A DNA stretch of 39,302 bases, from assembly GCA_004295245.1 (NCBI GenBank), contig REAR01000102.1, forward strand, positions 1 through 39,302. The letters are read 5' to 3'. Made by a program: the position numbers and the translations under genes. Below, piece after piece: positions 29,825 to 32,632 of this stretch. A model generated the notes under the pieces. That model searched no databases, was not told the origin of the DNA, and saw nothing but the letters and a program-made list of their open reading frames with translations. Numbering within the stretch: position 1 is the first letter of the stretch; the number at the start of each line of letters is the position of its first letter. This stretch comes from Sphingobacteriales bacterium. Its GTDB lineage: Bacteria; Bacteroidota; Bacteroidia; Chitinophagales; Chitinophagaceae.

Positions 29825-29899
29825 CTGCTGGTTGTGTTGCAGTACACGTGTGCGACGCAACGATGCTGCCACTGCGTACTACTGCCGGTTACCAACTAT
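29825..29899 (+). repeat. GTGCGACGCAAC dispersed repeat, copy 9
   Basis: Core at 29850-29861, then GATGCTGCC, GTACTACTGCCGGTTACCAA on the right and TTGCAGTACAC on the left. It lies between two minus-strand genes. Confidence 0.9.
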
Positions 29900-30369
29900 T
29901 TATCTTCAAACACCTGTACGTTTCTTGAAAAACTCTCTTCCAGAGAAATAAAAGTTTCTGTACGTTCTATGCCTTTTATTTTTTGTAACTCATCATGCAA
30001 CACAAAACGCAATTGGTTAATGTCTTTACAAACAATTTCTGCAAACATGCTATAATTGCCAGTGGTGTAATTAAGCCGCACAATCTGGGGTAGCTTACGC
30101 AATTCTTTTGCCACATTATCGTATAAAGAGCTTTTTTCAAGATAAATTCCTATAAAAGCAATTACGTCGTACCCTAACTGCTTTAAATCAACATTGAGTT
30201 TTGTACCTTTAACAATGCCTGCATCTTGCAGTTTTTTTATGCGCACATGTATGGTACCGCCAGATACAAATAGTTTTTTTCCCAGATCGGCATAAGAAAT
30301 ACCTGCGTTTTCAGTCATCTCCTGTATTATTTGCAGGTCTAGTTTGTCAAGATTTAATTTGTTCGCCAT
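29896..30369 (-). CDS. Lrp/AsnC-family transcriptional regulator
   Basis: 157 residues from ATG 30369 (MANKLNLDKLDLQIIQEM), or 159 from ATG 30375; the evidence does not separate the two. It has an N-terminal winged helix-turn-helix (ISYADLGKKLFVSGGTIHVRIKKLQDAGIVKGTKL) and a C-terminal RAM domain (YDVIAFIGIYLEK, IVRLNYTTGNYSMFAEIVCKD, ETFISLEESFSRNVQVF). Lrp/AsnC proteins form octamer-like assemblies that bind amino acids through the RAM domain. A perfect -7 box (30396-30403) is overlapped by one of two TTGAA-N5-TTCAA sites, suggesting self-repression. The other side faces the tRNA-like RNA. Confidence 0.93.
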   Translation of the reverse strand: MANKLNLDKLDLQIIQEMTENAGISYADLGKKLFVSGGTIHVRIKKLQDAGIVKGTKLNVDLKQLGYDVIAFIGIYLEKSSLYDNVAKELRKLPQIVRLNYTTGNYSMFAEIVCKDINQLRFVLHDELQKIKGIERTETFISLEESFSRNVQVFEDK

Positions 30370-30383
30370 TTTCAATTCATTTT

Positions 30384-30460: not shown

Positions 30461-30508
30461 TACAATGATCAATTACTGTAATATTGCACTGTTAACGTTC
30501 TTATACAC

Positions 30509-30679
30509 TGTGGGGTGATGAAATTTTTGGCAGACATGCCCTCTCGTCTCGGGGGTGGGGATAACAGGATAAACGCAGCATAGAGCCGACGTTACCGTTG
30601 GTAAGGCCGACCAGGGTTGACCACTAATCTTTGTGTTGCAGCTAACTGCCTCGTGGAGGTTCGACTCCTCCCCCTACAG
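30509..30679 (+). ncRNA. tRNA-like RNA with oversized insertion (leucine-type ends)
   Basis: A 171-nt region with tRNA ends. Acceptor stem TGTGGGG (30509-30515) pairs fully with CCCTACA (30672-30678). The D arm (ATG/CAT with AAATTTTTGGCAGA) resembles bacterial tRNA-Leu. A 5-bp anticodon-like stem (30539-30543/30551-30555) has loop TCGTCTC with C at position 33 and no leucine anticodon. The T arm is perfect: GGAGG-TTCGACT-CCTCC (30655-30671). Between anticodon and T arm lies ~100 nt instead of a short variable arm, containing an 11-bp helix (30575-30585/30629-30639) and a TTACC-GTT-GGTAA hairpin. CCA is not encoded. A strong terminator follows at once. It is neither a normal tRNA nor a tmRNA that I recognise. 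Confidence 0.6.
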
Positions 30680-30681
30680 CT

Positions 30682-30716
30682 ATACAAAAGCCCGCTTTAA
30701 AAGCGGGCTTTTGTAT
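30682..30716. terminator. bidirectional terminator between tRNA-like RNA and acs
   Basis: An almost perfect palindrome: TACAAAAGCCCGCTT and its complement around TAA, with T runs on both sides. It is 3 bases after the tRNA-like RNA and 3 bases before the acs stop. Confidence 0.92.
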
Positions 30717-30718
30717 TT

Positions 30719-32632
30719 TTACAACTTTCCGTTCATTATTTCTTCTACCACAGATGGGTCTAACAAAGTACTGGTATCGCCCAAATTGGTGGTTTCGCCT
30801 TCGGCTATCTTTCTTAAAATGCGACGCATAATTTTTCCGCTGCGTGTTTTAGGCAGACCGGCTACAAACTGTATTTTATCGGGCTTTGCAATGGGGCCTA
30901 TTATACGGGTTACGGTTTGCAAAATGTCTTTCCGAGTTAGGCTTTCGTCTCCGTGAGTACCTTGGTAAATAACATATGCATAAATGCCTTGTCCCTTAAT
31001 ATCGTGCGGGTAACCCACCACTGCACTTTCTACCACACCTGCATGCATATTAATAGCATTTTCTACTTCTGCAGTACCAATACGATGGCCACTTACATTT
31101 AATACATCGTCCACACGGCCGGTAATTCTATAAAAACCGTTTTCATCTCTTAAGGCCCCATCGCCTGTAAAATACAAGCCGGGGTAGGTAGAAAAATAAT
31201 TGGTTTTACACCGCTCATGATCTCCGTAAGTGGTGCGTAGTATAGAAGGCCATGGAAATTTTATACAAAGATTGCCCGATACATTATTGCCTTCAATCTC
31301 TTTTCCATTTTCATCTACCAACAACATTTGAACGCCGGGCATTGGCAGTGTGGCGTAAGTGGGTTTTGATGGAGTAACCCCTGCCATATTACTAATTAAA
31401 CAGCCACCAGTTTCTGTTTGCCACCAGGTATCTACAATCGGGCAACGGCCCTTTCCTACATTTTCATTATACCAGTGCCATGCTTCTTCATTAATAGGTT
31501 CGCCCACCGTGCCCAGCACTTTTAAAGAGTCTAATTTTTTTCCATGCAAAGGGCCTTCGCCAAAGCCCATCAGGCTTCTGATAGCTGTAGGGGCGGTGTA
31601 TAAAATATCTACCTTGTATTTATCTACCACCTCCCAAAACCTTCCGGCATCTGGCCAGGTGGGTACCCCTTCAAATAACAAAGTAGTGGCACCAGCGCTA
31701 AGCGGCCCATACACAATATAACTGTGGCCGGTTATCCAACCAATATCTGCAGTGCAAAAATGTACCCACCCGGGTTGGTATTGAAATACGTTTACAAAAG
31801 TATAATTAGTATACACCATATAACCGCCGCAGGTATGTACCACACCTTTGGGCTTACCCGTGCTACCACTGGTGTATAAAATAAACAGTGGGTCTTCTGC
31901 ATCCATTTCTTCTGCCGGACAATCGGGGTTGCCCATGGTTTCTACTTTTTTTATTTCATCTTCCCACCAAAGATCTCGGCCCTTTATCATACTAACGGGT
32001 ATACGGGTGCGGGTTAATACGATTACTTTTTTTACAAAGGGGCAGCCAATCAGCGCATCGTCTATTACGCTTTTTAGTGGTATTTCTTTATTGCCTCTGT
32101 AGGCACCATCACTGGTAACAATAAATGCTGCATTGGCATCTATTAACCGGTCTGCAATGCTTTGTGCACTAAAGCCACCAAACACTACAGAGTGTATGGC
32201 ACCTATACGGGCACAGGCCAATACAGCAATTGCCAGTTCTGGCACCATGCCCATGTAAATACAAACACGATCGCCTTTTTTAACACCATTATTTTTTAGC
32301 ACATTAGCAAACTGCACTACTTTAAAATGAAGGTCTTTGTAGGTTAACACCCGGTGATGTTCTTCAGGGTCATTAGGCTCCCAAATAAGTGCAGGCTTAT
32401 TGGCCTGTGTGGCCAGGTGCCTGTCAATACAGTTTTCTGTAATATTTAATTTGGCACCGCTAAACCACTTTACCTCGTAATCGTTAAAATTCCAATCCAA
32501 CACTTTATCCCAGGTTTTTCGCCAATAAAAATTACTGGCAATAGCCGCCCAAAAGCCTTCCGGGTCTTCTATACTTTTTTTATAAGCTGCTGTATATGCT
32601 TCTAAACTTTTTAACTGGTAAGCGTATGACAT
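30719..32632 (-). CDS. acs: acetyl-CoA synthetase (acetate-CoA ligase)
   Basis: A 637-residue AMP-forming synthetase of normal length. Landmarks are WFSGAKLNITENCIDRH, the P-loop YTSGSTGKPKGVVHT, WWQTETGG, YFTGDGALRDENGFYRITGRVDDVLNVSGHR (hinge) and the C-terminal PKTRSGKIMRR, whose lysine is the regulatory acetylation site known from enteric Acs. It converts acetate, ATP and CoA to acetyl-CoA. No acetylation or deacetylation genes lie beside it. It is transcribed away from the divergent MFS/SulP operon across an intergenic space carrying two inverted copies of the dispersed repeat. Confidence 0.96.
   Translation of the reverse strand: MSYAYQLKSLEAYTAAYKKSIEDPEGFWAAIASNFYWRKTWDKVLDWNFNDYEVKWFSGAKLNITENCIDRHLATQANKPALIWEPNDPEEHHRVLTYKDLHFKVVQFANVLKNNGVKKGDRVCIYMGMVPELAIAVLACARIGAIHSVVFGGFSAQSIADRLIDANAAFIVTSDGAYRGNKEIPLKSVIDDALIGCPFVKKVIVLTRTRIPVSMIKGRDLWWEDEIKKVETMGNPDCPAEEMDAEDPLFILYTSGSTGKPKGVVHTCGGYMVYTNYTFVNVFQYQPGWVHFCTADIGWITGHSYIVYGPLSAGATTLLFEGVPTWPDAGRFWEVVDKYKVDILYTAPTAIRSLMGFGEGPLHGKKLDSLKVLGTVGEPINEEAWHWYNENVGKGRCPIVDTWWQTETGGCLISNMAGVTPSKPTYATLPMPGVQMLLVDENGKEIEGNNVSGNLCIKFPWPSILRTTYGDHERCKTNYFSTYPGLYFTGDGALRDENGFYRITGRVDDVLNVSGHRIGTAEVENAINMHAGVVESAVVGYPHDIKGQGIYAYVIYQGTHGDESLTRKDILQTVTRIIGPIAKPDKIQFVAGLPKTRSGKIMRRILRKIAEGETTNLGDTSTLLDPSVVEEIMNGKL

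Follow-up and report, generated by a model that had tools for sequence, protein, structure and literature searches.

An apparently undescribed family of tRNA-shaped RNAs with aspartate identity elements in Bacteroidota and phages

The bacterial Y RNA YrlA combines a tRNA-like module with a second conserved domain. In tRNA-dependent asparagine synthesis, the carrier is itself a tRNA, and passages of PMC4206432 explain the case of Bdellovibrio by a relaxed AspRS acting on tRNA-Asn. The same passages describe bacteria, Bacteroidetes included, that have AsnRS, GlnRS, and GatCAB but are without an asparagine synthase, and present the role of GatCAB in bacteria with both AsnRS and GlnRS as a standing question. 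As set out in parts of PMC9976931, G73, G34, U35, C36, and C38 are strong bacterial determinants of aspartate identity; there and in the passages of PMC4206432, U1-A72 confers GatCAB amidation of Asp-tRNA, and G1-C72 and U20a are antideterminants in tRNA-Asp. A section of PMC7609411 deals with the allo-tRNAs, which have 8/4 or 9/3 stems, frequently have GUC as their anticodon, and were found to carry serine or alanine.

Here, we describe an element in a 39,302-nucleotide stretch of DNA from a Sphingobacteriales bacterium (contig REAR01000102.1), which was analysed as a whole and is called the window. Positions 30509-30680 of its plus strand hold a class II tRNA-like RNA, delimited from U1 to C74 by a covariance model and alignments and present as a single copy in the host genome. 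It belongs to a large family of tRNA-shaped RNAs in many Bacteroidota and in phages that is apparently undescribed. Titles and abstract openings returned by full-text literature searches, from whose scope subscription papers and preprints mostly fell, describe no such RNA; among catalogues of candidate structured RNAs, parts of PMC2864571 were checked.

Structure, conservation, and spread of the RNA

A preliminary description, made from the letters of the window, had recognized this RNA, and its coordinates and anatomy were right: the covariance model matches the element end to end (30509-30680, 138.5 bits; model positions 1-144, full match), the conserved element having one extra 3' base, C74 (30680), beyond 30679. 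The 7-bp acceptor stem, the 5-bp anticodon stem, the T arm, the 11-bp helix (30575-30585/30629-30639), and the hairpin at 30592-30604 all recur in the minimum-energy fold or in the conserved structure. The parts of the RNA are the following:

30509..30515, plus strand: acceptor stem, 5' strand UGUGGGG (U1-A72 and G2-C71 near-invariant; 3-70 to 7-66 covary)
30518..30537, plus strand: D arm, tRNA-Leu-like (GG at 30529-30530; without base 20a; covariance model cross-match to tRNA-Leu)
30539..30555, plus strand: anticodon arm CCCUC-UCGUCUC-GGGGG (compensatory U-A pairs in the huge-phage copy, L311)
30546..30548, plus strand: anticodon GUC (Asp), followed by U37 and C38 (30550)
30557..30652, plus strand: giant variable arm (base stem 30557-30560/30649-30652)
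30565..30573, plus strand: second variable-arm stem CAG (30565-30567, pairing with 30646-30648) and conserved internal-loop strand GAUAAA
30575..30585, plus strand: long distal helix, 5' strand (pairs with 30629-30639; minimum-energy fold and covariation)
30592..30604, plus strand: small hairpin UUACC-GUU-GGUAA (variable between species; minimum-energy fold)
30613..30625, plus strand: conserved hairpin AGGG-UUGA-CC(A)CU with a bulged A (motif GGUNGACCAC)
30641..30648, plus strand: conserved internal-loop strand GCUAA and CUG of the second stem (alignment, covariation)
30655..30671, plus strand: T arm GGAGG-UUCGACU-CCUCC
30672..30680, plus strand: acceptor 3' strand CCCUACA, G73, and C74 (parsed and located copies)

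The 48 homologues from which the covariance model was built include the window copy, and the covariation alignment consists of 48 of 105 hand-chosen representatives drawn from 230 copies. None of the 48 sequences leaves the acceptor, anticodon, T, or variable-arm base stem unpaired. Over the whole structure, 94.7% of cells pair in the true register versus 46-56% when the structure is slid, and 245 cells show changes on both sides versus 64 in shuffles. There are 47 both-side changes over two pairs of the variable-arm base stem, and in the distal helix 80.7% of cells are paired, with both-side changes in seven of eight pairs. Alignment of relatives thus bore out the earlier view that the RNA is derived from a tRNA, since a paired, covarying cloverleaf is common to 48 diverse homologues, and that pairing conserved at both ends speaks against a dead pseudogene, an identity that covariation refutes. 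The folding energy of the window element is ordinary (z -0.56; 54 of 200 shuffles are equally good) and hence uninformative; the proof that the element exceeds chance is its conservation.

What had been taken for an insertion of about 100 nt instead of a variable arm is a giant variable arm, carried by a covarying 4-bp base stem and continued by a 3-bp stem, the conserved GAUAAA/GCUAA internal loop, and a distal helix of variable length; many copies also carry in this arm the hairpin GGUNGACC with a bulged A. The suggestion of an unrecognised intron in a tRNA fails for the same reason: the covarying variable-arm stem holds the extra sequence, which is itself conserved. The RNA is 109-211 nt long among 251 distinct parsed copies. 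Its variable region measures 37-129 nt. The covariance model cross-matches tRNA-Leu(UAA) at 45 bits and tRNA-Ser at 32.8 bits but does not report the tRNA-Asp or tRNA-Asn loci of a relative, so the body of the RNA is class II and tRNA-Leu-like. The D arm, noted earlier as tRNA-Leu-like, has its stem in the conserved structure.

In the window, ARAGORN called no tRNA, and the element had no match to a known RNA family in Rfam, a search proposed by the preliminary description, at gathering thresholds; since neither reports it, the RNA would have been overlooked. A permissive Rfam scan (up to E = 5) gave no tRNA, tmRNA, or intron family, and nearly all of its sub-threshold matches lay over the downstream hairpin. 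A tmRNA is rejected by the lack of a match to the Rfam tmRNA families and of G3-U70, and a canonical tmRNA sits elsewhere in the host genome. The missing G-U pair had already been held against a tmRNA; there is indeed none at 3-70, the tmRNA/Ala position, but the acceptor stem does have a G-U pair at 4-69. The other earlier objection, the lack of a tag reading frame, stands in so far as the apparent frame is not kept: the one that the eye can make out in the window copy is part of a covarying helix, and many homologues, as well as all short forms seen, do not have its stop. A tRNA-Leu with a group I intron is rejected in turn, no Rfam intron family having been matched up to E = 5 and the extra part being the covarying variable arm. 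What we take to be a resemblance to the Y-RNA stem prompted a search for Ro60 (TROVE), which was found in four of 99 genomes, the host genome not among them; with no Rfam Y RNA match either, YrlA and other Y RNAs are rejected.

At E below 1e-15, blastn detects homologues in 44 of the 60 Chitinophagaceae genomes, the host genome included; one of these genomes, G038, has the 3' part only, at a contig end. Over 99 genomes, again counting the host, weaker homologues occur elsewhere in the order, some of them in tandem. An alignment of thirty full copies spans the whole RNA and shows an invariant 3' ACAGC; in more distant copies, the ends are conserved and the middle varies. Scores of the covariance model over the 99 genomes were at least 90.8 bits for true copies and at most 62.4 bits for tRNA-like matches, and presence was called by these limits, G038 being counted as present from its blastn match cut at the contig end. 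A pattern scan of named genomes returned at least 120 stretches and gives a lower bound on the taxonomic range. Represented among the 80 matches listed by name are Chitinophaga, Niabella, Terrimonas, Dyadobacter, Spirosoma, Cyclobacterium, Algoriphagus, Belliella, Marivirga, Fulvivirga, Phaeodactylibacter (five matches), and Saprospiraceae MAGs; also among the matches listed are few records of Flavobacteriales (L111, L119) or Cellulophaga (L170) and one Ignavibacteriales MAG (L099). No copy was found on plasmids.

The scan pattern fixes part of the D arm and the anticodon loop; conservation there is therefore quoted only from copies located by blastn or the covariance model. The model in turn leans towards the pattern, which all 48 underlying sequences match, one missed anticodon base costing an estimated few bits out of the model's 90-158. 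Parsing succeeded for 293 of 304 pattern matches; the 11 dropped were in some cases visibly cut by the locus end and in others had a T arm that the parser rejected. Merging identical copies left the 251 distinct ones.

Two to five neighbouring copies per genome were seen at L042, L043, L044, L045, L113, L155, and L156. Several of the multi-copy genomes have differing variable arms, hinting at specialised copies. In Cyclobacterium, Belliella, Indibacter, and their relatives (L107, L110, L112, L121, L134, L168), the variable arm bears a common apical CGAGCTCG palindrome; these copies are too closely related to count as independent.

Identity elements and gene order

All 59 copies located by blastn and the covariance model have G34, U35, C36, and C38 in the anticodon loop, the discriminator G73, U1-A72, G2-C71, and C74. 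Among the 251 distinct parsed copies, whose acceptor statistics lean slightly to the consensus because the parser awarded one point each for a 5' TG, TG at 8-9, and a GC end, U1-A72 occurs in 249 and G73-C74 in 250. The preliminary description had seen no usable anticodon, but GUC (Asp), accompanied by C38, is invariant. It had also remarked on a missing U33, which is true of the window copy (C33) and not of the family: the 59 located copies have U in 37, C in 21, and G in one. Among cellular parsed copies, C or G replaces U33 in 46 of 190, and U37 is found in 188 of 190. In tRNA-Leu, position 73 is A; neither A73 nor a leucine anticodon is present here, and this identity is rejected.

Pair 3-70 is U-A in 58 of the 59 copies and C-G in one, and pairs 3-70 to 7-66 drift with compensation, unlike the near-invariant U1-A72. 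Two AspRS features are lacking, namely G1-C72, which is strictly conserved in normal bacterial tRNA-Asp, and G10, replaced by A10 in 56 of 59. U20a is absent from the D loop, which reads GG-C-A in the window and GG-U-A in L311, a copy found without the pattern; in pattern-found copies, this sequence is preset by the search. In a single-contig relative (G024), the normal tRNA-Asp has G1-C72, while the normal tRNA-Asn and tRNA-Gln have U1-A72. Thus, the RNA unites AspRS signals with a GatCAB signal that is absent from normal tRNA-Asp. Since tRNA-Asn and tRNA-Gln of the relative carry U1-A72, a non-discriminating AspRS could supply asparagine without the tRNA-like RNA.

The surroundings of the RNA in the window contain three further features:

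29896..30375, minus strand: AsnC/Lrp-family regulator gene, divergent (PF01037, 58.5 bits)
30479..30486, plus strand: putative -7 promoter element UAAUAUUG (TA..[AT]TTGC enrichment upstream)
30684..30717, no strand assigned: strong inverted repeat between convergent genes (by eye; sub-threshold matches of terminator-bearing Rfam models on both strands)

The regulator scores 160.6 bits with the NCBIfam AsnC model NF008384, below its cut-off of 227, and 54.5 with Lrp, so that the AsnC model is the nearest. Of 141 cellular loci that extend 900 bp or more upstream, 107 have an AsnC-type gene on that side in divergent orientation, never on the same strand, with a median gap to the RNA of 150 bp (measured to the edge of the tblastn match); it is absent from the other 34 and from all 51 viral loci tested. 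A survey of all open frames within 2 kb placed the AsnC family at 113 of 159 cellular loci, in each case upstream and on the opposite strand. The next-commonest families follow at 28 loci (upstream, same strand, ca. 366 aa) and 25 loci (downstream, same strand, ca. 236 aa), as exemplified by L006 and L005. The E. coli genes asnC and asnA diverge from each other across 151 bp; with the same arrangement, the RNA occupies the place of asparagine synthetase A.

The RNA is predicted to be expressed. UAAUAUUG matches what we take to be the Bacteroidota -7 consensus and is a possible promoter element. Within 80 bp upstream of 187 cellular copies, TA..[AT]TTGC occurs in 64 versus three in one shuffle, and GTTCTT is likewise enriched (57 versus four in a shuffle); the two are probably a promoter and a regulator site. 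Downstream, the strong terminator of the preliminary description was upheld in part, the hairpin at 30684-30717 being clear by eye but a consensus terminator scan finding none; the repeat is likely a two-way terminator. The gene convergent with the RNA (30719-32632, minus strand) encodes an acetyl-CoA synthetase, whose family is found in six of 159 cellular loci.

Co-occurrence with GatB and copies in phages

GatB, taken as the marker for GatCAB, was searched in the same 99 genomes. The host genome has it, as do all but one of the RNA-bearing genomes (56 of 57); the one without it is G014, which is 72% complete. Within the family (60 genomes), 43 have both RNA and GatB, 15 have neither, G014 has the RNA only, and G055, without GlnRS over the cut-off, has GatB only. 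Genomes that lack GlnRS need GatCAB to make Gln-tRNA, and the set was therefore divided by GlnRS (TIGR00440), presence here, as for the synthases, meaning a score over the curated cut-off. Among the 74 GlnRS-bearing genomes, 52 have RNA and GatB, 20 neither, two GatB only (G070, G080), and none the RNA only; for those of the family, the two agree in 55 of 55. The association vanishes in the 25 genomes without GlnRS over the cut-off (both, four; neither, four; GatB only, 16; RNA only, one). With AsnRS over the cut-off in 93 of 99 genomes, GatCAB is left without an evident housekeeping task in those that bear GlnRS. Three genomes without GlnRS over the cut-off, G066, G085, and G097, have both GatB and the RNA, and GatCAB may serve two substrates in them; G044, 83% complete, is a fourth.

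On a tree of AsnRS from 60 of the 99 genomes, which comprises genomes with a usable AsnRS and leaves out the family members G014, G044, G047, and G057 for want of one over the cut-off, the label changes number four for the RNA and three for GatB. Independent pairs amount to two on well-supported branches and four on all, and the sign test is not significant; with so few independent events, relatedness weakens the co-occurrence. Fisher values for the RNA/GatB counts ignore relatedness, and no weight was placed on them. The association is striking but phylogenetically thin.

A clean split of asparagine synthases by presence of the RNA was not found among the 99 genomes. AsnA is present in four, two of them RNA-bearing, and E. 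coli-type AsnB in two, both without RNA and GatB. TIGR01536-type relatives over the cut-off are common in both groups (85 of 99 overall, 46 of the 57 with the RNA), and the RNA is thus not generally the sole possible source of asparagine. Neither AsnA nor a TIGR01536-type gene scores over the cut-off in 13 genomes, of which ten have the RNA and three do not. The 15 family genomes without RNA and GatB include two with E. coli-type AsnB and none with AsnA. G032, rated 100% complete, is without RNA, GatB, AsnA, or a TIGR01536-type synthase over the cut-off and is possibly an asparagine auxotroph.

The core pattern also matches 99 stretches of IMG/VR contigs, yielding 61 distinct parsed copies, and a full copy (131.5 bits) lies in a 636-kb uncultured phage record, LR756504.1, with U-A pairs in the anticodon stem and the loop CUGUCUC. 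In GenBank phages, blastn with the window element gave this copy as its one weak match, and three viral copies used as queries gave none. Viral status rests on IMG/VR and PHROG matches. The commonest neighbour of the viral copies, seen at 23 of 61 loci on the same strand and no more than 2 kb downstream, is a family with one member identified as terminase large subunit, yet none of 20 viral proteins matched in this way was a terminase or a capsid protein; exonuclease, PhoH-like, and thymidylate synthase families occur near other viral copies. Other tRNA genes were found in 12 of 28 viral loci scanned, the array of L274 having nineteen tRNAs, a normal tRNA-Asp among them, plus a tmRNA. In L274, L283, L255, and L289, the RNA, several tRNA genes, and tmRNA genes lie together, and the ARAGORN tags of some viral tmRNAs are unusually long, e.g., AEELSSFTFEDAMAFVGADYAVAA.

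A perfect palindrome of at least 6 nt (6-12) directly follows the GACCAC hairpin on its 3' side in 39 of 47 distinct viral regions, versus 13.4 expected, although the regions are not independent, since related phages share palindromes. The palindrome differs between phages: GCGCGC, GCTAGCTAGC, TTGTGCACAA, GCTTGCAAGC, and others (viral loci L212-L310, e.g., L231, L233, L260). Cellular copies show no excess, either with the motif (19 of 76; 17.6 expected) or without it (23 of 60; 21.8 expected). The phage palindromes suggest that dimers may form through kissing loops.

Proposed function and comparison with known systems

With recognition elements of both AspRS and GatCAB, a co-occurring GatB, and an AsnC-type gene beside it, the RNA looks more like a substrate than like the decoy that had been considered earlier. 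On balance, we somewhat favour a reading in which AspRS charges the RNA, GatCAB amidates the product, and the latter serves asparagine supply, not decoding. Asparagine formation of the tRNA-dependent kind would thus have the RNA as its dedicated carrier of the amino acid. By its anticodon loop and discriminator, the RNA is a candidate AspRS substrate, to be loaded with aspartate; U1-A72 in place of G1-C72, together with the lack of base 20a, would open the Asp-RNA to conversion into Asn-RNA by GatCAB. The size of the variable arm, the poor conservation of U33, and a pyrimidine at 37 suggest that the RNA is held off the ribosome, and asparagine on an aspartate anticodon would then not corrupt proteins. 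The asparagine would be freed or passed on for use by the cell, with control by the divergent AsnC-type regulator. More tentatively, and with somewhat less than even confidence, the RNA could be seen as a stand-alone cofactor of biosynthesis, a non-decoding carrier for the conversion of aspartate to asparagine that stands in for AsnA beside AsnC, was acquired by phages, and there gained self-complementary loops through which it dimerises.

Among other readings, a sensor or regulatory RNA is unlikely: its charge state would report asparagine or glutamine supply and regulate a target, or the RNA would titrate AspRS or GatCAB. The AsnC neighbour fits, and the conserved variable-arm motifs (GAUAAA/GCUAA and that of the hairpin at 30613-30625) are unneeded by the charging model; against it, no fixed downstream gene offers itself for control in cis, the commonest such family being found in 25 of 159 cellular loci, and a substrate role explains the dependence on GatB more directly. 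Non-translating tRNAs act as donors of other amino acids, and a charged, perhaps amidated RNA passing aspartate or asparagine to a peptide, a protein N-terminus, a lipid, or the cell wall would draw on the same identity elements and GatB evidence as the carrier; yet within 2 kb AsnC is the only family that recurs at most loci (28 and 25 of 159 for the next two), and although a transferase may be encoded elsewhere in the genome, we consider such a donor rather unlikely. An odd elongator for GAC/GAU, delivering aspartate or, as regulated mistranslation, asparagine, is improbable. The tRNA core is complete, the GUC anticodon readable, and tRNA genes lie near the RNA in the phages mentioned, but the frequent loss of U33, the near-constant U37, and the size of the variable region argue otherwise, a normal tRNA-Asp is present in the one relative checked and in the phage array L274, and a plain aspartate tRNA would leave U1-A72 and the link to GatB unexplained.

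Charging by SerRS, as with tRNA-Sec or allo-tRNAs, would suit a class II RNA with a long variable arm, and G73, G2-C71, and R4-Y69 fall within the serine set given in part of PMC9976931. The C72, C11-G24, and G30-C40 of that set are replaced by A72, by U11-A24 in 40 of 48, and by a pyrimidine at 30; the conserved aspartate anticodon and C38 would be unneeded, and GatB would have no rationale, all of which makes this reading very improbable. Least probable of all is a decoy that shields tRNAs from anticodon nucleases or other tRNA-targeting defences, for which the viral stretches, the tRNA genes near some of them, and the highly conserved anticodon loop might be cited: bacteria retain the RNA in fixed synteny with AsnC, and conservation of the acceptor end and the GatB link would be left unexplained.

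If the carrier reading is true, the amidotransferase has an RNA substrate of its own in a large part of the Bacteroidota examined, and an RNA of tRNA shape works in metabolism rather than in translation; its presence in phages would make it the RNA counterpart of an auxiliary metabolic gene.

The RNA shares with tRNA-Leu its body, D arm, and placement of the variable arm and differs in G73, the GUC anticodon, U1-A72, and the giant variable arm. With tRNA-Asp it has in common the GUC anticodon, C38, G73, and G2-C71; unlike tRNA-Asp, it is class II, with U1-A72, a giant variable arm, a poorly kept U33, and U37. Allo-tRNAs and tRNA-Sec variants are likewise unusual class II tRNA-like RNAs, whereas the RNA described here has 7/5 acceptor and T stems (paired in 48 of 48) and aspartate determinants. 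In the tRNA-dependent asparagine synthesis of Bdellovibrio, Deinococcus, and Staphylococcus, a non-discriminating AspRS and GatCAB act on tRNA-Asn; the likeness, going by the passages of PMC4206432, is that aspartate is placed on a U1-A72 RNA and then amidated by GatCAB, and that asparagine is supplied where AsnA and AsnB are missing. In that system, the carrier is the normal, translating tRNA-Asn and a relaxed AspRS is needed, whereas the tRNA-like RNA would be a separate carrier with an aspartate anticodon, for which a discriminating AspRS would suffice. For Bacteroidota, the RNA thus offers another answer beside a relaxed AspRS on tRNA-Asn, and one that is not exclusive of it.
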